Source of the DNA: Gemmata palustris
GTDB taxonomy: Bacteria > Planctomycetota > Planctomycetia > Gemmatales > Gemmataceae
Direction: 5' to 3'
DNA: 64,000 nucleotides
Assembly: GCF_017939745.1 (NCBI RefSeq)
Contig: NZ_JAGKQQ010000001.1
Coordinates: forward strand, 7,269,299 to 7,333,298
Of the stretch, positions 17,241-63,745 are shown piece by piece (positions within the stretch are counted from its first letter, which is position 1; the number at the start of each line of letters is the position of its first letter). A program made the translations under genes and the position numbers. The notes under the pieces are model-generated. The model did not search any database. It was not told the DNA's origin and saw only the letters and a list, made by a program, of their open reading frames with translations.

Positions 17241-19499
17241 TTACTGCGGGACGCGGGCCAACTTCCGCTTCACTTCGTCGAGCCGGCCGTCGCGTTTTCC
17301 GCGTGCCGAGAACCGCACGTCCGCTTCGTACAGTTCCCTAGCCTTTTCCCAGGCGCTCTTGGCCTTCGGCTTGTCGTTCAACCGGAACAGCACGTCGCCC
17401 AGGTGGTCCCATACGGTCGCGTCCGTGTCCCCACCGACAAGCGTCAGGGCCTTCTCCAGTTCCGCTTTCGCGTCCACAAATTTGCCCTGTCGGAATAGCA
17501 CCCAGCCCAAACTGTCGCGGTACGCGGCATTCTCCACTTCCGCGCTACCGGACTTCCGGCGCTCGATGCGGTCCAGTTCGATCGCGTGGCGGATGAGCCG
17601 CTCGGCTTCATCGAGATTGCGCCCCTGTTCCGCGAGGTGGTAGCCCAGGTCGTTGCACGCGCCGGCGGCGTCCGCGTCGTCGTCGAGGATCGCTCGCAGG
17701 AGGGCTTCCGCCTCGAGCGGCTTCTTCGCGCCCCAATACGCCCCCGCTTGTGCGTACCGCACCTTCGGTCGGTCGGTCGGCGAATCGAACTCCTCGGACA
17801 GTTTCTTGCCGTACTCGATGGCGTCGGTCCACTGGCCGAGAATTTGCAGTACCTGGTGTTTCCTCAACCGGACCGCGAGCCGTTCGGTGCCGGCCTGCTG
17901 AATAGCTTTATCCGCAGCGGCGATCGCCGCGATCGCCTTGCCCTGCTCGGCGAGGGCACGCGCGAGGTGGTAGTTGAAGAAGACGGGGGCGATCTGAACG
18001 CCCGGGGCGTCCAACCCGTCGCGGCACACGGTTTCTACCTCGGCCGGTTTCCCCGCGAACCACAGCACGTCGATGAGTGCCGAGTACGCCTCACCCTGCA
18101 ACTCTTTGGGGGCACGAAGTACGGCCTGACGGTACTGCGCCGCAGCGAGGTCGAGTCGGCGGTGCTGGCTCGCGAGCGTGCCCAGAAAGTAGTAGGTGCC
18201 GTGGGTCCGCTTGGTCCCGACGCGGAGGTCCTCGGCGGCGGCCCGCAGGAGCGCGGAAACGCCGTCCGGGTCGTTTTGGAACGCTTCGGCGATGGCCCGC
18301 GCCTTCTCTGCCGCGAACGCCTTCGCCTCGGCCGTGACCGGCGCTTCGGCCTTGTCATTCTTCTTTTCTTCGAGGAGTGCGAACGACCGATCGAGATCCG
18401 CGATGATCTCCCCGGCGCGGCGCGTGTCGAGGTGCGAGCGCACCATCACGGCGATCACTCTTGGCTCGGCCGTGATGCCGGTCAGTGCCTTGAACAGTTC
18501 GTCCGCCTCGCGCCGCGAAGCCGGGTCGCTCGCCATCTCCGCAGCGAGTACCGCGACGAGCGAGCGGTTCCGTTCGTCGCGCTCGGTCAGTTTTCGTAGT
18601 TGGGGTACAACGTCGTCGTCGCGGTTCGCGGCGTGAAGTAACTTCGCGTAGCGCTGGTACGGCTCCGGCGCTTGGGGCCGCAGTTTGAGGAACTCTTCGA
18701 GGTGCTTGAGAGCAATCACTGGTTCGCCCTGCGCCTGAAGCGCGCCCGAAAGGTTCCAGTTTAGTCGTGCGGCACTGAGCGCGTCGTCGGCCTTCTTGGG
18801 GTCCGCGAAGAGCTTCGCCGCGTCGGTGTAGGCTTCGACCGCCGAAGCGAACTTTCGGCGCTTCACGAGCAGGTGCCCCAATTGTTCGAGGCACTCGGCG
18901 GCCTCGGAGTCGGCTTCCTTCGGCGTGAACGCGGCCATCGCGATGACCGTTGCGCGGCCCTCGGTGACGAGGCCCACCGCTTTGCGGAGCGCGGCTTCGG
19001 CCGTGGAGAGATCCTTAGTCTTTTCGCTGAGTGTGGCGAGGTCGCGGAAGGCGCGAACGGCCTTCTCCGGGCGCTCGGTGATTGCCTTGCTCCCGCACGC
19101 GCGACTCACCGCCGCGACCGCCTCGGGTAACTCGCCCGCGTTGGAGAGCAAGCGCCCCAGAAGAAGGGCGGTGTCGCAGTCGTCGGGGTCTCTGGCGCTG
19201 ATCTTGCGCGCGAGGCGGATGGCTTCGGGGTCGCGCCCGAGTTGGGCGTAGAGTTTGGCGAGTTCCTTGAGCGGCTCGATCGCGTCCGGGTCTTGCTTCG
19301 CGGCCGCTTCGAGTTGCTTCGCGGCGGTCAGGAGCCGTTCGCGGCGCAGGTTCCAGATGCCCGCGCCGAAGCGCGCGAGCGCGTCGCGGTGGGCCTCGGT
19401 CATCCCCGGCGCAGCGGGTTCGGCCGACACGCACAGCACGGCACCGACAAACAAACTCGCGACCATAGCGACTCTCGCTGCGTAGGGGGCGCCCCGCAA
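17241..19499 (-). CDS. Exported tetratricopeptide-repeat protein
   Basis: The 752-residue product has an N-terminal signal sequence (VAMVASLFVGAVLCVSA, residues ~10-27). The remainder is almost entirely TPR-like helix pairs, for example LEAAAKQDPDAIEPLKELAKLYAQLG and DEAERLIRHAIELD, ending with ATVWDHLGDVLFRLNDKPKAK. It contains no catalytic motif. It is likely a periplasmic scaffold or assembly protein. The gene stands alone: convergent with the dioxygenase and divergent from the ATP-grasp-like gene. Confidence 0.85.
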   Translation of the reverse strand: MRGAPYAARVAMVASLFVGAVLCVSAEPAAPGMTEAHRDALARFGAGIWNLRRERLLTAAKQLEAAAKQDPDAIEPLKELAKLYAQLGRDPEAIRLARKISARDPDDCDTALLLGRLLSNAGELPEAVAAVSRACGSKAITERPEKAVRAFRDLATLSEKTKDLSTAEAALRKAVGLVTEGRATVIAMAAFTPKEADSEAAECLEQLGHLLVKRRKFASAVEAYTDAAKLFADPKKADDALSAARLNWNLSGALQAQGEPVIALKHLEEFLKLRPQAPEPYQRYAKLLHAANRDDDVVPQLRKLTERDERNRSLVAVLAAEMASDPASRREADELFKALTGITAEPRVIAVMVRSHLDTRRAGEIIADLDRSFALLEEKKNDKAEAPVTAEAKAFAAEKARAIAEAFQNDPDGVSALLRAAAEDLRVGTKRTHGTYYFLGTLASQHRRLDLAAAQYRQAVLRAPKELQGEAYSALIDVLWFAGKPAEVETVCRDGLDAPGVQIAPVFFNYHLARALAEQGKAIAAIAAADKAIQQAGTERLAVRLRKHQVLQILGQWTDAIEYGKKLSEEFDSPTDRPKVRYAQAGAYWGAKKPLEAEALLRAILDDDADAAGACNDLGYHLAEQGRNLDEAERLIRHAIELDRIERRKSGSAEVENAAYRDSLGWVLFRQGKFVDAKAELEKALTLVGGDTDATVWDHLGDVLFRLNDKPKAKSAWEKARELYEADVRFSARGKRDGRLDEVKRKLARVPQ

Positions 19500-25238: not shown

Positions 25239-25533
25239 GGTGTCGGGGCAACTCACCGGCAAGGGGAGCGGCCCATCCGTGGGTGCGAATCGAGTCCGTG
25301 CGGCCGGTGTGGAGCTGCCCGCGTGCGGTCCTGCGGGCACTCAGTGAACTGAGAGCGAACGTTAAACGAAGATTCCGGGTACGTCAAGAGGGGGATTTGG
25401 GCGAATTATCCGTTCACAGTACCCGATCAGGGGTTCGGGCGCGGTTTTTTGTCCCGGTTCCACCCGTGTCCGGAATCCGTTCTAGGCTGGTTGTTGCTCA
25501 GACCGCCGCATTCCGTCTCAGGAAGTTGCCGCT

Positions 25534-26520: not shown

Positions 26521-26730
26521 GCCTCTCCCCAATCCCTCCCCGAAAGCCGAAGACATGATGCCGTCTTCGGCTTTCGGTTTTGCTCGCCTTCCCTTCAGGG
26601 AGGGGGCTGGGGGGTAGGTTCTGCGGACAACCCCTCCCCAACCCCTCCCCTAAACGGAGAGGGGCTTAAAACCGCCTTTGGGTCTGCTCCCCCTTCCTTT
26701 TTAGGGAAGGGGGTTGGGGGGTTAGGTTCT
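26521..26730. repeat. C/T-rich imperfect palindromic repeat, two copies in tandem
   Basis: Two related units fill this gap: about 26521-26622 and 26629-26730. The second opens AACCCCTCCCCAACCCCT and closes GGGTTAGGTTCT, with internal hairpins around GGAGAGGGGCTTAAA and CCCCCTTCC...GGAAGGGGG. It is 102 bp long and closely matches the 102-bp segment inside the alcohol dehydrogenase gene at 55155-55256. The first unit shares both ends but has a different middle hairpin (GAAAGCCGAAGAC...GTCTTCGGCTTTC). It behaves like a mobile REP/MITE family. Confidence 0.85.
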
Positions 26731-57226: not shown

Positions 57227-58477
57227 TCAGAACTTCAGGTTCATGCCTTTGAGCCGTGCGACGGTTTCGGCCATCAGCGCGTCCTCTTCGGCCTCGCTGT
57301 TCGCAATGTACGTCACCGAGAACCGCAGGTACGCACCCGCGTCGTCCCACGGCACGCAGCACACGGACTGGTCGTGAATCAGGTACTGCGACGCGGCCTC
57401 GGCGCTAGCGAACGCGAGGTCGCCGGCCGACTTGGGCGCGCTCGCGTAGAGGAAGTACGTGCCCCCCGGCATCTCGCACTTGAACCCCACCTGCTTCAGC
57501 GCCGCGACCAGCTTTTCGAGCCGGCGCTTGTACTTCGCCCGGATCTGTACGGGGATCTCGGGCGTGCGCAGTGCGTGCGCGGCCGCGTGCTGGACCGCCA
57601 TGAACTGCCCGCTGTCGCTGTTGTCCTTCACGTCGGCATAAGCCTGCACGATCTTCGGGTGCCCGCACACGAAGCCGAGGCGCCAGCCGATCATGTTGAA
57701 GCCCTTCGACATCGAGTGGACCTCGACGCCGACCTCCTTCGCGCCCTCGACCTGGAGGAAGCTGAGCGGCTCGGACTTGTAGCTCAGGAGGATGTGCGCT
57801 GCATCCTGCACGATCACGATCTGGTGCTTGTGGGCGAACTCGATGACGCGCTTGTAGAAGTCGCGCGTCGCGACCGCGCCGGTCGGCGAGTTCGGGTAGT
57901 TGATGACGAGGAGCTTCGCCCGCTTCTTCACGTCGTCGGGGATGCCGTCGAGGTCCGGGAAGAACCCGTTCTTTTCCAGCAGCGGCAGTCGCACCACCTC
58001 GCCACCTAGGTAGCGCGTCCAGGTGCCGGCGACCGGGTAGCCGGGCACGGTCATGAGCGTCGCGTCGCCCGGGTTGATGAACACCGCGGGGAGCATCGCG
58101 TAGGCGGGCTTACTGCCGATACAGTGGCACACCTCGTTCACCGGGTCGAGCGCCACGCCGAACTGCCGCTGCATGAACTCCGCGGCGGCGTCCTTGTAGT
58201 TCTGGATGCCGTTGTCCGCGTACCCGCGGTTCTCGACCTTGTTGGCCTCGCGCGTGAGCGCGTCGCGCACGGTCGCGTCGGCCATGTCGTCGTTTTCGCC
58301 GATGCCGAAGTCGAGCAGCTTGCGCTCGGGGTGATCGGCGAGCGCCTTCCGCTTGGCGCGCTTGATCTTCTCGAACTTGTAGACGTCGGTGCCCTTGCCG
58401 TAGTTGGCCCCGCCGATGCGGTCGGCGAACAGCGTTTGGAACCACGGATCGGAAGCGGAGGGTGCGGAAGCGGACAT
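57227..58477 (-). CDS. dapL: LL-diaminopimelate aminotransferase-type enzyme
   Basis: The 416-residue PLP enzyme follows the DapL pattern: LLDFGIGENDDMADATVRDAL, ENRGYADNGIQNYKDAAAEFM, IGSKPAYAMLPAVFINPGDATLMTVPGYPV, and the PLP-lysine segment HSMSKGFNMIGWRLGF (~residue 262). FSVTYIANSEAEED ends it. DapL converts tetrahydrodipicolinate to LL-diaminopimelate in lysine and cell-wall synthesis. The link to the MFS and dehydrogenase genes raises the alternative that it is a paralogue acting on another amine. Confidence 0.85.
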   Translation of the reverse strand: MSASAPSASDPWFQTLFADRIGGANYGKGTDVYKFEKIKRAKRKALADHPERKLLDFGIGENDDMADATVRDALTREANKVENRGYADNGIQNYKDAAAEFMQRQFGVALDPVNEVCHCIGSKPAYAMLPAVFINPGDATLMTVPGYPVAGTWTRYLGGEVVRLPLLEKNGFFPDLDGIPDDVKKRAKLLVINYPNSPTGAVATRDFYKRVIEFAHKHQIVIVQDAAHILLSYKSEPLSFLQVEGAKEVGVEVHSMSKGFNMIGWRLGFVCGHPKIVQAYADVKDNSDSGQFMAVQHAAAHALRTPEIPVQIRAKYKRRLEKLVAALKQVGFKCEMPGGTYFLYASAPKSAGDLAFASAEAASQYLIHDQSVCCVPWDDAGAYLRFSVTYIANSEAEEDALMAETVARLKGMNLKF

Positions 58478-58753
58478 GGGTGGAACGGTCCCGGGGCGGA
58501 GTAGGGGAATATTTGGTGTTGTAGCAGCGGGAAACGCGAAAGCCTATACACTCGGTCCACTTACGAAACGGGAGCGGGAGCCGATTGCGGTACGGCAACG
58601 GGTTGCGCCGATCGTGCCTCGAACGGTCGGAGTTCTGATAACGAGCCGCCCCGCGATCTCGCAGCGCGGTTCGTTCACCCGCGACGCGGATCTCAAACGG
58701 GAACCGTTCCACAACGCGAAACTGAATGAAAGTTCACTATTGAGGGTGGGTGT

Positions 58754-58780
58754 CAAATCGCCTGAAATTCAGGCGATTTG
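58754..58780. promoter_or_regulatory. 27-bp near-perfect palindrome upstream of the second integrase
   Basis: CAAATCGCCTGAA and TTCAGGCGATTTG are exact inverted 13-mers around one A. It lies 67 bp upstream of the integrase ATG and contains TTCAGG, also the start of the iteron unit at 62,366-62,600. It may be an operator or attachment core. The ~370-bp gap 58478-58847 holds nothing else I can name. Confidence 0.6.
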
Positions 58781-58847
58781 ATTCTTATCTTCGTGGCGGT
58801 TACATCCGGGAGGTGTGGATAGTCCTTCCTTTGGAAGTGAGGCGAAA

Positions 58848-60137
58848 ATGTCGCAGGGGAAAGCCAAGATCGTGGAATTTCGCGGCGAGAAGATCACGCT
58901 TGCGGAACTGTCGAAGCGCACCGGGATCGGCGTAGCAACCCTGCGCACCCGGATCGTCACTTGTGGCAAAAGTGTCGAGGAAGCGGCGACGGTGCCCGTG
59001 CGCAAGAAGTCCCGGTTCGGCGGGCGGCATCCGGTGAATGTCCCGCGGCCGGTGCCGAAGTTCAAGCGGCACCCGTCCGGGCGCGCGTACTCGCGCTGGA
59101 AGATGTTGGGCAAGGTCAACGAAAGGTACTTCGGCAAACACGGGACTACGGAGGCGAACACCGCGTATCGGAGGTTCGCGCAGGACTGGACCGCGGGAAA
59201 GTACGACGCGGCTACCGAGTCTGGAATGAAATCGGCTGGCGGGATCTCGGTCGCTGCGCTCGCGGAAAAATGGCTGTCGCACGTCCGCGACTACTACACA
59301 AAGGACGGCAAGCCGACGAGCGAGGTCAGGACGTGTACCGCGGCCGCACGTCTGCTGATCGAGAGCGGGGAAAATCGCCTCGCGGTGGACTTCGACCCGG
59401 CGGCGCTCCGAACCTGTCGTCAGCTCTTTATCGACCGTGGCGGCGTGCGCGCCTCGGTAAACGCTTATGTTGGCCGCATCGTAAGAATGTTCGCGTGGGG
59501 TGCGGGCCAATCGCTCGTTCCGCCCACGGTTCATGGTGCGCTGAAGCTGGTCGAGAAGCTCAAGGCTGGTCGATCGGCGGCGCCGGACCGCGCCAAGAAG
59601 CGGCCCGCGACCGATGCGCAGATTGAAGCCACGCTCCCGCACCTCGCGCCCACGGACGCGAAGCGCCGGGCGAAGCTCGTGACGATGATCCGCCTGCAAC
59701 GGTTGACGGGTATGCGGCCGGGCGAAGTGTGTGCGCTCGAAGCGGGAGACTTGGAGCGCACTACGGACGTGTGGATCTACCGCGTGGGGAAGGCCAATAA
59801 GAATCGGCACCGCGGCAAAGCGCAGACGTACTACCTGGGGCCGAAGGCGGTCTCGCTGCTGGCGCCGTACCTCGAAGGCAACCCGGCCGGGCCGATCTTC
59901 GGCGAAGGCCCGGAGGATTACAGCCAAGCCATCATTCGCGCCAGCGTGAAGGCCAAGTGCCGGTGGACACCCCACCAACTCCGGCACGCGCTCGCCACGG
60001 AGGTCGCGGAGAAGTTCCGCAGTCTCGACTACGCGGCGGCGGCCATCGGTGACACCAGGGCCGTAGCCGAGGCCTTTTACGTTCACATGGACCCCCAGAT
60101 GCGCGCGAAGATCGAGATCGCCCGCGCGATGGGGTAG
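58848..60137 (+). CDS. Tyrosine-type integrase of the second element
   Basis: ATG 58848 has GAGG 6 nt upstream and gives 429 residues. Catalytic features: Arg in RLTGMRPGEVCAL (~residue 285), HxxR in TPHQLRHALATEV (~376), nucleophile Tyr in EAFYVHMDP (~409). The box-III position usually reads LGHS; here it is IGDTRAV, so the second conserved His is Asp. An N-terminal HTH-like helix pair (ITLAELSKRTGIGVATLRTRI) is present, as in excisionase-linked integrases. No tRNA is adjacent. Confidence 0.9.
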   Translation: MSQGKAKIVEFRGEKITLAELSKRTGIGVATLRTRIVTCGKSVEEAATVPVRKKSRFGGRHPVNVPRPVPKFKRHPSGRAYSRWKMLGKVNERYFGKHGTTEANTAYRRFAQDWTAGKYDAATESGMKSAGGISVAALAEKWLSHVRDYYTKDGKPTSEVRTCTAAARLLIESGENRLAVDFDPAALRTCRQLFIDRGGVRASVNAYVGRIVRMFAWGAGQSLVPPTVHGALKLVEKLKAGRSAAPDRAKKRPATDAQIEATLPHLAPTDAKRRAKLVTMIRLQRLTGMRPGEVCALEAGDLERTTDVWIYRVGKANKNRHRGKAQTYYLGPKAVSLLAPYLEGNPAGPIFGEGPEDYSQAIIRASVKAKCRWTPHQLRHALATEVAEKFRSLDYAAAAIGDTRAVAEAFYVHMDPQMRAKIEIARAMG

Positions 60138-60448: not shown

Positions 60449-60649
60449 ATGGGCGCGACGAAGTTGGTCTACTACGTACCGGATCTGATGAAGATCGCAG
60501 GGCGCTCGCGGACCTGGGTGCAAGAGGCCCTTCGCAACAACGTACTCCCGAAGCCGGTGCGCATCGGCAAGCGCAGCGCGTGGCCCAAATCTCAAATCGA
60601 TCGACTGTTCGGCCTCGACACAGCGACGACCACGACAAGCGCCTCGTGA
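60449..60649 (+). CDS. AlpA/MerR-type excisionase-like regulator
   Basis: The 66-residue protein has an AlpA-style HTH: YYVPDLMKIAGRSRTWVQEAL, then LPKPVRIGKRSAWPKSQIDRLF. Such proteins bind attachment or promoter DNA and promote excision or regulate integrase. Its place between the integrase and replication genes fits. A ~250-bp gap precedes it, in which I see no gene. Confidence 0.82.
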   Translation: MGATKLVYYVPDLMKIAGRSRTWVQEALRNNVLPKPVRIGKRSAWPKSQIDRLFGLDTATTTTSAS

Positions 60650-60774: not shown

Positions 60775-61176
60775 ATGGACCTATTTATAGATTATCCCGA
60801 TGGGAATGTCAATTTCCCATCGGAACAACAGATCGAGAAAGATACGCCGGAAGCGGTGAAGGCGAAGCTCCGCGAACACCTCGATAAGTGGCCGGACGAT
60901 CTCAACGCCGGCACCAGCGGCATCAACAACCACAACCCGCTCGCGCTGCTTTCTGGGCACGGCGGGGCTACGCCTGCGGCGTTCGGCGCGGTCGCTCCGA
61001 CGGGATGGTATCCGACCAAACCGGGGCGACAGTTTCACGACCGGCGCGATGATGTAGCCCCCGTCTCTCGCGCAGAGTTTTTGGTTCTCGTGGAGCAGGT
61101 CCGCGCCCGCGGGTGTGATGTCGATGAGATGGCCGCTATCGTGGTCAAGCTCACGACCGGAAAGGGGGCGCGTTAA
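60775..61176 (+). CDS. Hypothetical protein coupled to the RepA-type helicase
   Basis: The 133-residue protein is unrecognised. It has an N-terminal acidic section (MDLFIDYPDGNVNFPSEQQ) and a C-terminal helix (RAEFLVLVEQVRARGCDVDEMAAIV). Its TAA stop overlaps the next ATG by one base (TAATG), so translation is coupled. It probably acts with the element's replication protein. Confidence 0.65.
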   Translation: MDLFIDYPDGNVNFPSEQQIEKDTPEAVKAKLREHLDKWPDDLNAGTSGINNHNPLALLSGHGGATPAAFGAVAPTGWYPTKPGRQFHDRRDDVAPVSRAEFLVLVEQVRARGCDVDEMAAIVVKLTTGKGAR

Positions 61177-62435
61177 TGGCTCGCCCCGGCGGTGCCCTTG
61201 ATCGGGCAGAGCAGAAAATTCGTGCGGACGCGCCCGTCCTTCACGCCGGCGAGATGCTGGTCGAATCCCTTGCGGGCGTCCGCCCGCGGGCGGTTCGCTG
61301 GCTCGTCCCCGGGCGCATCCCCGCCGGTATGGTGGGCCTCCTCGCGGGTGATGGCGGGCACGGCAAGAGCGTCACGACGTTGGAACTGGCTGCGGCCGTT
61401 ACGCGCGGCCGGTGCGCGTTCGGGATGACCTACCCGAACGCGGTGAGCGGCAAGGCGCTGCTCATCTGCTGCGAGGACGACTGGCAGTGTACCGTGGTGC
61501 CGCGATTGGCCGCGCTCGGGGCGGACCTGTCCCGCGTGTTGAGGGTGAAGGGGATCGGGAAGACCGACGGCGGCCTCCTCGACTTCAACCTCGCGCACTT
61601 CGCGGAACTGGAACGCCTGCTCACCCGCGACAAGGACATCAAGCTCGTCGTGATCGACCCGGCCGGCGCGTACATCGGTCGCGCCGGTGTGGACGATAAC
61701 AGTGACTCGGAACTGCGGTCCCTCCTGGGACCGCTGTCCGAGGCCGCGAACCGCACGGGGGCCGCGGTACTGCTCGTGAAGCACCTCAACAAGTCGGCCG
61801 GGGCGACGGCGGTGCAGCGCGTGGGCGGGTCGGTCGGCTACGTCAACGGCGTGCGCTACGTCTACATGATCGTGCCCGACCCGGACGACGCGGACCGGAA
61901 GCTCATGCTCCCGATCAAGGCGAACATCCTGCCGCCGGGCGCCCTGGGGTTCGCCTACCGCCTTCGACAACTCGCACCTGATGAAGCGGGCCGGCTCCTT
62001 CTTGCGGAGTGGCCCGACCTCGACGCCGAAGAGGTCGTGAAGCTGGCGGCCCAACTGTTCCGCCAGGAGTGGGAGCAGGACGTTCGGGCCGATCCGAACG
62101 CGGTGGCGAGTACCAGCACGCGGCCGCGCCAGAAGACCCCGGAGCAGGCGGCCGAATGGCTCGTGTCGGTCTTCAACGAGGAACACGTCGCTTACCCGTC
62201 GTCGGTCGTGTTCACGGCGGGCAAGGCCGCCGGGTTCGGGCGCGACTCGATCTACAAGGCGAAGGATCTCGCAGGGCTGACCGCGAGCAAGAGCGGCAGG
62301 TGTGCGGGGACGTGGTACTGGGGGACCGGCGGAACGGACCTGTGGCTGTTGCGGGAGGCATTCCCTTCAGGAAGTTCAGGAAGTTCAGGAAGTAGACCTG
62401 AAGTGCCTGAAAAACAAGGATATTCAACTTCCTGA
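61176..62435 (+). CDS. RepA-type hexameric helicase ATPase
   Basis: The 419-residue protein resembles RSF1010 RepA-like and phage-borne helicases. Walker A is LAGDGGHGKSVTT (~residue 63), the Walker B region ALLICCEDDW and LVVIDPAG (~150), and VLLVKHLNKSAG (~200) is the conserved motif 3. The C-terminal ~110 residues hold a winged-helix-like part (EQAAEWLVSVFNEEHV, then GFGRDSIYKAKDLAG). The last residues (PSGSSGSSGS) are coded by the start of the iteron array. It likely unwinds the element's origin. Confidence 0.85.
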   Translation: MARPGGALDRAEQKIRADAPVLHAGEMLVESLAGVRPRAVRWLVPGRIPAGMVGLLAGDGGHGKSVTTLELAAAVTRGRCAFGMTYPNAVSGKALLICCEDDWQCTVVPRLAALGADLSRVLRVKGIGKTDGGLLDFNLAHFAELERLLTRDKDIKLVVIDPAGAYIGRAGVDDNSDSELRSLLGPLSEAANRTGAAVLLVKHLNKSAGATAVQRVGGSVGYVNGVRYVYMIVPDPDDADRKLMLPIKANILPPGALGFAYRLRQLAPDEAGRLLLAEWPDLDAEEVVKLAAQLFRQEWEQDVRADPNAVASTSTRPRQKTPEQAAEWLVSVFNEEHVAYPSSVVFTAGKAAGFGRDSIYKAKDLAGLTASKSGRCAGTWYWGTGGTDLWLLREAFPSGSSGSSGSRPEVPEKQGYSTS

Positions 62436-62600
62436 TAACACTTAATTAAGTATTCAACTTACTGAAATTCAGGAAGTAGACCCCTTCAACTTCCTGAACC
62501 GGATCAACTTCCTGAATTCAAATACTTGTCATCAGGAAGTTGAATTTACTTACTTCTCAAGGGTTTTTGTTCAACTTCCTGAACTTCCTGAACTTCCTGA
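62366..62600. repeat. Mirrored iteron array, candidate replication origin or partition site
   Basis: The 9-mer TTCAGGAAG, or its complement CTTCCTGAA, occurs eleven times. Three tandem forward copies lie at 62366-62392, one forward at 62468, one partial forward at 62532, reverse copies at 62428 (partial), 62490 and 62508, and three tandem reverse copies at 62575, 62584 and 62593 (partial). The left and right clusters mirror each other. Inside are AT-rich tracts and the palindrome CTTAATTAAG (62441-62450). It lies between the RepA-type and ParB-like genes, the classic position for an iteron origin or parS-like site. Confidence 0.85.
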
Positions 62601-62629
62601 CCGTGGGCATCAACAACTTCGAGGGCACC

Positions 62630-63745
62630 ATGAGCAACGACGACGCGACGACGACCGTGAAGGTCACGCACTACGAGTTCCACCCGATCGCGGAACGCTA
62701 CCCACTTCTCAGCGGGGAAGAGTACGAGACATTCAAAGACAGCTTGGGGGCGAACGGCCAGAAGGTCGAGATCGAGCTATTCGAGGGCAAGATTCTCGAC
62801 GGGCGCAACCGCTACCGGGCGTGCGTAGACCTGGGCATCGAACCGAAGGTGAAGGTGTTCGTCGGCACCGCGAATGAGGCCGCCGTTCACTCCGACGTGT
62901 TGAACCTGGATCGGCGGCACCTCACGCGAGAACAGAAGCGCGCCGTCATCGCGTACAAGGTGAGAGAGAACCCCAACCGGTCCGACCGGTCAATTGCCGC
63001 AGAGGTGGGGGTGGACAACAAGACGGTCGCGTCCGTCCGTCGGGTGGAGTGTGATACCCCAGCTCAGGCAGGTGAGGAATCTCCTCACCTGCCTGAACCA
63101 GTCGCACAGAAAAGAGAAGGGCGGGACGGGAAGAAGTACACGGTGAAGCAACCGCAAGTGGGGCCGGTCGTGAAGCCGGATGTGGTAGTGCCTCAAGCGG
63201 CACCCGTGATGATCGCGCCACAGGTTGCGGCAGTCGAGGACTCGGTTGCGGCCAACGATCCGCCTGCGATTCCGATCTCCCAGTCTGCACCGGAGTGGCT
63301 TAAGGCGTTCGCGGAAGCTATTCAGGAACTTGCAACACACAACTACGTGCCTTTGTACATTGCGCGAGCAGGCTGCGTTGACCAAATGAGAAAAGCCAAG
63401 CTCAGGGCTACGGTTGTGTTTGGTGGCACATTAGAGGGCTTGGCCGACCTCACTAGCATCCCGCGCGATCGCATGAACGAATTCGCGGGAGCGACCGTGC
63501 CACCAAGCTATTACGAAGGATTAAAGATACAGAAGGCTCTAGGCCTTCTGACTTACTTCAACAACGATCTTATGGCAAATGACGAGTGGTTTAATTTTGA
63601 TGAGGAGGTTGATCGGAGACACAAGGAGTTCACCAACTTAGAGGCTGAGTACCAGCAGCGACTGAAGGATGAGAAGGAGGTGGCAAAGAAGAAGAAGAGA
63701 AAGAAGCCGAAACCACAGCCGTCGCTGCCTGTCGCTTCGGTTTAA
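62630..63745 (+). CDS. ParB-like nuclease-domain protein
   Basis: From ATG 62630, with GAGGG upstream, the protein has 371 residues; an open frame back to 62540 would read through the iterons. The ParB/Spo0J N-domain reads YEFHPIAERYPLLSGEEYETF, then GANGQKVEIELFEGKILDGRNRYRAC and ILDGR-type catalytic/CTP region, then an HTH (LTREQKRAVIAYKVRENPNRS, SIAAEVGVDNKTVASVRR). A Pro/Val linker and a basic helical tail (EKEVAKKKKRKKP) follow. No ParA is adjacent. It may bind the neighbouring array. The second half is less GC-rich than the first. Confidence 0.85.
   Translation: MSNDDATTTVKVTHYEFHPIAERYPLLSGEEYETFKDSLGANGQKVEIELFEGKILDGRNRYRACVDLGIEPKVKVFVGTANEAAVHSDVLNLDRRHLTREQKRAVIAYKVRENPNRSDRSIAAEVGVDNKTVASVRRVECDTPAQAGEESPHLPEPVAQKREGRDGKKYTVKQPQVGPVVKPDVVVPQAAPVMIAPQVAAVEDSVAANDPPAIPISQSAPEWLKAFAEAIQELATHNYVPLYIARAGCVDQMRKAKLRATVVFGGTLEGLADLTSIPRDRMNEFAGATVPPSYYEGLKIQKALGLLTYFNNDLMANDEWFNFDEEVDRRHKEFTNLEAEYQQRLKDEKEVAKKKKRKKPKPQPSLPVASV

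Follow-up and report, generated by a model that had tools for sequence, protein, structure and literature searches.

The strongest repeat cluster in a 64-kb stretch of Gemmata palustris DNA is a mirrored array of 9-bp units at the 3′ end of a gene for a RepA-type helicase, and this array is probably the iteron replication origin of an integrated element of about 15 kb, bound and opened by the element's own helicase. The position, geometry and recurrence of the array, its 9-bp spacing, and the co-variation of repeat word and protein are read from the sequences, and the folds are predicted from them. A similar block, usually with another word, stands in the same place at roughly six in ten of the related genes of the phylum, which points to a self-contained replication start site. 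It is recurrent and more general than the initial annotation of this DNA supposed.

The array and the element that carries it

The region analysed, here called the window, is the 64-kb stretch C1:7269299-7333298 of a 9.2-Mb genome. On its + strand a tyrosine integrase, a weak AlpA-like protein, a 133-aa ORF, a RepA-type AAA_25 protein, the array and a weak ParB-like protein follow each other in this order, and the features are:

58710..58722, + strand: candidate left attachment core CACAACGCGAAAC, part of a 13-bp direct repeat whose second copy, at 73571, is outside the window
58815..60137, + strand: tyrosine integrase (Pfam Phage_integrase E 1.3e-9; phrog_1 integrase E 2.9e-24)
60449..60649, + strand: AlpA/excisionase-like HTH protein, weak (HTH_17 E 0.009 and Phage_AlpA E 0.013, both below cut-off; phrog_66 excisionase/regulator E 0.003)
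60775..61176, + strand: 133-aa ORF without Pfam, PHROG or NCBIfam match
61176..62435, + strand: RepA-type RecA-fold helicase, proposed initiator (AAA_25 E 2e-32), with its 3′ end entering the array
62133..62324, + strand: part coding for the C-terminal winged helix (residues 320-383; from AF2 of residues 303-386), proposed iteron reader
62367..62600, no strand: mirrored iteron array, 11 exact TCAGGAAGT and 2 weaker copies
62367..62393, + strand: left block of the array, three tandem forward units within the helicase ORF, encoding SGSSGSSGS
62440..62460, no strand: AT-rich stretch within the array (81% AT), proposed melting site
62574..62600, − strand: right block of the array, three tandem reverse units (sequence scan)
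62630..63745, + strand: ParB-like protein, weak (phrog_1033 E 8e-4; TIGR00180, NCBIfam parB_part, E 0.006, below cut-off; no Pfam match)

The upstream integrase and the RepA-type ATPase beside the array, both named in the initial annotation, were confirmed by the profile matches listed, and the PDB match of the latter is RSF1010 RepA. For the AlpA-type regulator the Phage_AlpA match is weak and below the Pfam cut-off (E 0.013). A near-perfect inverted repeat, CAAATCGCCTGAAATTCAGGCGATTTG, lies at 58752-58781, about 35-60 bp before the integrase start.

TCAGGAAGT occurs in 11 exact copies at 62367-62600, accompanied by one copy with one mismatch (62457) and one with two (62402), and the orientations from left to right, with both weaker copies counted, are +++---+--+---. 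The tandem forward units start at 62367, 62376 and 62385 and the tandem reverse units at 62574, 62583 and 62592, with mixed copies between. An eleven-copy array of a 9-bp unit, with three forward copies first, three reverse copies last and a mixed, AT-rich interior, had been described from the letters, and the sequence scan bore this out in all parts once the register was moved by one base, TTCAGGAAG being exact 8 times and TCAGGAAGT 11 times. The array is 62% AT compared with 31% in the helicase gene, and reaches 81% at 62440-62460.

With up to one mismatch, TTCAGGAAG gives 34 matches in the window, against a mean of 10.1 and a largest value of 19 in shuffles. Repeat pairs per 240 bp number 256 at the array, with a median of 15 over the window and 97 at the best place elsewhere (1063 overlapping scan windows, 64 kb). 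On the shuffles and the window-wide repeat density, a chance origin of the array was rejected. Other repeat-dense places in the window are at 26521 (97 pairs per 240 bp) and 38101 (87). If 12 copies are oriented at random, a triplet of one sense at one end and of the other sense at the other end arises in about 3% of cases, so that mirroring alone is weak evidence at this locus, and it is its recurrence in relatives that makes it convincing. Outside the array a single exact TCAGGAAGT was found in the window, at 25518, and none in the rest of the presumed element. A search of the 9.2-Mb genome for two adjacent units with up to two mismatches gave just two places besides the array; each has two mismatches, and an exact pair is present at the array alone. 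No DnaA box at up to one mismatch was found in 61000-63000.

The array is presumed to be carried by an integrated mobile element of about 15 kb. Similarity to the genome G402 ends at window position 58458 and resumes at 73690, with about 820 bp in G402 compared with about 15.2 kb here, and the genomes G400 and G401 match up to 58621. The 13-bp direct repeat at 58710 and 73571 lies at both presumed element ends, and it is only a candidate attachment core since 15 of 300 shuffles give an equally long match. No tRNA was found at the element. Beyond the window there are a sigma-70 region-4-like protein (E 0.01, below the Pfam cut-off), an HNH-like ORF (phrog_1271, E 2e-7) and, far from the integrase gene, an Xre-type repressor-like HTH protein (HTH_31 E 2e-18; L009 14167-14460). 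A tape-measure-like protein (E 0.036) and a tail-assembly-chaperone-like protein (E 1e-4; phrog_1749 E 4e-4), both below the Pfam cut-off, occupy L009 9502-11243, which is 66203-67944 in window numbering and outside the window. These tail-like genes weakly suggest a prophage remnant or satellite cargo. A ClpP/SDH-type serine protease is encoded on the minus strand of the presumed element at L009 11602-12528, matching phrog_11747 over nearly its full length (E 3e-98). No terminase or terS match was found among the element ORFs scanned.

Helicase fold and recurrence of the array in Planctomycetota

A PDB sequence search at E 0.1 gave RSF1010 RepA (1g8y) as the sole match of the helicase, with E 7.9e-6. 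The AF2 model of the helicase (36 sequences) has a mean pLDDT of 89.7, and its best rows in VIA-align are 1olo, 1g8y and 1nlf (Z 20.8-20.3, rmsd 2.8-5.8, 207-222 aligned), 1olo having Z 20.8, rmsd 4.6 and 217 aligned and 1g8y having Z 20.6, rmsd 2.8 and 207 aligned. RSF1010 RepA comes first in VIA-align, with RAD51, DnaB and KaiC less than 1-2 Z units behind, as expected for a RecA fold, and in plain Foldseek it is only 15th, behind RecA/RAD51-type chains. The protein has a predicted RecA fold with RepA as its nearest structure in VIA-align, in agreement with an RSF1010 RepA-like hexameric helicase. Residues 303-386 alone were predicted by AF2 as a winged helix (pLDDT 81) in the order H-E-H-H-E-E, for which the structure matches are weak (best Foldseek E 0.2, best VIA-align Z 8.2) and mostly to winged-helix domains. 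For the final 20 residues of the helicase, whose codons lie in the first half of the array, pLDDT is below 50. No Pfam match to a Rep_3/RepE-type initiator was found in the six window proteins scanned. Among the element ORFs scanned, the shortest excluded, no primase was matched, and RepA matches AAA_25 alone.

Relatives of this RepA are present in 39 of 392 genomes of a phylum sample (E 1e-10) and in 21 of 95 family genomes (E 1e-30). The 56 loci used comprise every one of the 27 family-search matches and 29 more from the phylum search (54 matches, 30 of them as loci); 55 of the 56, the window included, entered the positional profile, L202 being left out for an internal stop. Each locus was anchored at the winged helix's last conserved Trp, and 45 repeat pairs per 240 bp served as density threshold. 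A dense cluster was found at the anchor in 33 of the 55 loci (median 49), compared with 0-5 of 52-55 loci at the distant offsets (≤−240 and ≥+300; medians 12-19). The remaining 22 were under the threshold at the anchor, some peaking slightly further on and some being without array. In an earlier, hand-chosen set of 36 of the 56 loci, 29 were dense at offset 0. Counting all repeat pairs over 450 bp discriminated poorly in GC-rich DNA.

An independent motif search, with a score cut-off of at least 50 chosen before the controls, recovered 26 of 55 array regions, whereas of 165 control stretches taken from these loci it recovered 3. Neighbouring sites were exactly 9 bp apart in 95 of 270 cases in these 26 strongest arrays and in 53 of 1073 in the controls; this spacing is the commonest yet not universal, being absent from five of the 26. 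The AT content peaks inside the array in 25 of the 26 loci, and the array AT maximum exceeds that of the gene in 20 and that of the downstream DNA in 19. Outside Planctomycetota a clear gene-end array was found in two of 11 RepA relatives on plasmids and phages, pCG2 (158) and Streptomyces NEAU-sy36 (62, with 133 at another place in its stretch). The Campylobacter and Subdoligranulum relatives have short arrays by eye, with scores of just 27-28, and the remaining seven look to be without array (scores 8-33). A Rep_1-like protein (E 1e-5, below cut-off) is encoded on pCG2 too, so that its replication cannot be assigned to the AAA protein. L237 and L244, the Campylobacter plasmid (with TnpW annotated beside) and the Subdoligranulum relative, encode a Toprim-AAA_25 protein, and by eye its gene is followed by a short GGCAAG-type 9-bp array, direct and inverted, round an AT-rich stretch.

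The words of the arrays are unrelated between loci, examples being TTGGCAATC, AGGTCATTC, CAGGACTGG and CCGTCTCAC. Clean mirrors are seen in L208, with six and six units, and in L187, where repeated GAGACGGGT units and then their complement enclose an AT-rich core. The two-unit pattern of the window (up to one mismatch) matches 9 of 95 family genomes, and array scoring among the best 30 stretches gave mixed-orientation arrays only in this genome and in G483, the others being one-strand repeats. This pattern scan of 95 genomes rules out one word common to the whole family. In public collections, exact pattern scans gave 18 stretches from genomes and 86 from viruses.

Beyond this genome the closest relative is the RepA of G483, which is 62% identical and has in the same place a mirrored array of ten units (up to one mismatch) of nearly the same word as TCAGGAAGT. 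Near RepA genes of other Gemmataceae, where the initial annotation proposed to look for the array, the near-identical unit was thus met in G483, and other relatives use other words. The G483 array is preceded by a Toprim-like primase by reading only, with no Pfam match.

Four RepA-type matches, that of the window included, were found in this genome. The three paralogs (60%, 58% and 37% identity) have arrays with other words, TCAGGAAGT having 0 or 1 matches there at one mismatch, and two of them (L203 and L208) share a CTCTCCC-like word. One tyrosine integrase and one serine recombinase were found near paralogs in the 14-kb stretches, and no recombinase among the four ORFs scanned for the third. 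In the paralog L042 a Toprim domain is fused to the RepA-type protein. A trypsin-like protease with the effector-associated domain EAD1 is encoded near a RepA paralog of the same genome (L041 4139-5377).

The more alike two winged helices are, the more alike are their words (Spearman 0.30, Mantel 0/1000; 26 loci, 325 pairs); the same holds for core identity (0.33, 0/1000 permutations), and with core identity removed the partial correlation of word and winged helix is 0.15 (5/1000). Word and protein thus appear to evolve together, and the winged helix is the favoured candidate for the reader of the repeat word, common descent with the core being hard to separate. If the arrays act as origins, the change of word from element to element, with 9 bp still favoured, would allow several elements to replicate independently of each other within a cell; this genome has four RepA-plus-array loci with three distinct words.

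Proposed initiation and alternative readings

In the proposed mechanism the RepA-type protein encoded just before the array would be both initiator and helicase. By analogy with SaPI Rep, its C-terminal winged helix would read the 9-bp unit, the blocks, being opposite in orientation, would seat two hexamers that face in opposing directions, the AT-rich DNA between them would melt, and the primase would be supplied by the host or another element. The element itself would excise and replicate. Chances are about even for a broader proposal, a phylum-wide class of one-gene replicons that have a RecA-fold, RSF1010-RepA-like helicase fused to a winged helix and the origin in the 3′ end of their own gene, taken jointly with the helicase being initiator and self-loader and the origin consisting of units of about 9 bp in mirrored blocks.

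The initial annotation saw here a replication-partition module on an integrating element. Its first half, an iteron array tied to a RepA helicase and likely to be an origin, is supported, and the partition role is not. The ParB-like gene is indeed a neighbour, but its ParB identity is weak (TIGR00180 below cut-off, no Pfam match); the protein belongs to the uncharacterised phage families phrog_17439 and phrog_21315. ParB binds repeated sites in known systems and the gene adjoins the array, yet it is very improbable that the array is a parS-like centromere bound by the protein at 62630-63745. Among all 39 ParB-like relatives, taken with flanks of up to 8 kb and with the ParB-like match not re-found in 3, none has a TCAGGAAGT array and no locus has more than one exact unit. 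Some 240-bp place with a density of at least 45 does occur at 10 of 29 ParB-like loci in a scan of short flanks (about 1.5 kb), but just upstream of the ParB-like gene this density is reached in only 3 of 35, the highest value being 68 compared with 315 in the window. A RepA gene about 3 kb from the ParB-like gene, as would suit a partition site, was found at one of the 39 loci (G087, which is L274), but this RepA is without a dense array, with at most 17 near the anchor. The other 38 have no RepA in the available stretch, where a distant one could be missed on short contigs, flanks of 3 kb or more to either side being available at just 24 of 36 loci. No ParA match was found among the flanking ORFs scanned. 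The G483 array lies on a 13-kb contig without ParB-like match, of which about 2.6 kb is present beyond the array, and the ParB-like relative of that genome sits on another contig. Repeats near homologous RepA/ParB pairs were accordingly found for the RepA relatives, as private words, and neither for the ParB-like relatives nor as a dense array at the G087 pair. Since G483 and other RepA relatives have arrays and none of the 39 ParB-like relatives does, the array goes with RepA, and the ParB-like gene appears to be a neighbour and not a conserved partner; the parS reading was rejected on these counts. Three ParB-like paralogs are present elsewhere in the genome, none with RepA in the available stretch.

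It is unlikely that the array instead serves to control repA or the gene after it, as an operator or processing site acting by transcription control, termination or an mRNA hairpin. Its place between two genes of the same direction and its fold as single-stranded DNA (-62.5 kcal/mol, z -10.7) would agree with such a role, but any mirrored array folds well, orders like +++-+-++-+-- (L193) are unsuited to one hairpin, and the ORFs that follow the array differ among the 26 loci with the strongest arrays. EcCICFT073, a replicon with published tests, moreover has the same kind of array in the same place. Use of the array in cis when the element is packaged, transferred or excised (as pac/cos, oriT or recombination arms) would fit an integrative element with weak tail-assembly-like genes downstream, but is quite improbable in view of the two paralogs that have a tyrosine and a serine recombinase, respectively, and both still have their arrays at the repA 3′ end. 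That the array is a neutral minisatellite arisen at the gene end is scarcely credible; slippage can yield short tandem units, but the mixed orientation, the constant position with unrelated words and the excess of 9-bp spacing speak against it.

Read as a replication origin, the array would give the mobile elements of Planctomycetota, a phylum with few genetic tools, a testable origin and initiator and a starting point for vectors. The winged helices paired with private words would form a natural data set for working out a recognition code, and the preference for 9 bp would be a clue to helicase assembly on DNA.

Comparison with known replicons

RSF1010 (IncQ) RepA is the nearest solved relative of the window RepA by sequence and the top one in VIA-align. 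Its solved chains align to model residues 27-324, and the window protein continues with the winged helix. RSF1010 iterons are read by a separate RepC. Unlike RSF1010, the window has its array at the 3′ end of the helicase gene itself. Phage P4 alpha also reads iterons. Alpha is presented in passages of PMC7145576 as a fused primase-helicase initiator of a satellite, and no matching origin is described in the passages on PLE (PMC7145576) and on PICMI satellites (PMC10803314). For Streptomyces pWTY27, passages of PMC3583192 report five 8-bp and five 7-bp repeats, which are one repeat on opposite strands, at a replication-essential locus; its RepA has 522 aa and no predicted function, and the feature in common with the window is the repeat in both orientations.

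According to passages of PMC7581432, SaPI Rep uses its C-terminal domain to read iterons that come directly after its gene, SaPIbov1 Rep is DUF927-like, and SCCmec Cch2 is a proposed self-loading helicase with a C-terminal domain that binds repeats downstream of its own operon. As described there, Cch2 is like the window protein in being a helicase with repeats downstream and differs in being D5-type with a few short direct repeats.

The closest layout is that of PICIs, for which passages of PMC6092414 describe two iteron sets round an AT-rich stretch directly 3′ of rep, an arrangement stated there to have no parallel among known bacterial replicons, and name EcCICFT073 as a PICI with a tested replicon. 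With EcCICFT073 as positive control the same statistic peaked at the pri-rep end, with 88 at 17961 (CDS end 17996) and a median of 9, and the gene end holds TCTACC in six forward and five reverse copies, three neighbouring pairs being 9 bp apart. Window and PICI/SaPI share an integrase and a helicase gene, which in the window would encode the initiator and is followed just 3′ by the putative origin, where two sets of iterons likewise flank AT-rich DNA. For the AlpA-type activator or Rpr/Stl-type repressor of PICIs the element has the AlpA-like match below the Pfam cut-off and the Xre-type repressor-like protein far from the integrase gene, and for their specific attachment sites the candidate 13-bp repeat. 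Window and PICI differ in the helicase, EcCICFT073 Rep being D5_N/Pox_D5 and the window RepA a RecA-fold AAA_25 protein without D5 match, in that neither a separate or fused primase nor terS was matched among the element ORFs scanned, and in the host, which here is of Planctomycetota. Because primase and D5-type Rep were looked for and not found, the element is not filed as a PICI. The claim that the layout is new to Planctomycetes stands as far as open-licence PMC text goes: no report of such origins was found there for Planctomycetes with phage satellites or iterons, and among the matches listed Gemmata was not named with prophage or satellite, nor AAA25 with iterons. The two-set iteron layout as such was, as passages of PMC6092414 make clear, already described for PICIs. 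If the array is an origin opened by its own helicase, the origin layout of PICIs would exist also with an unrelated helicase class.
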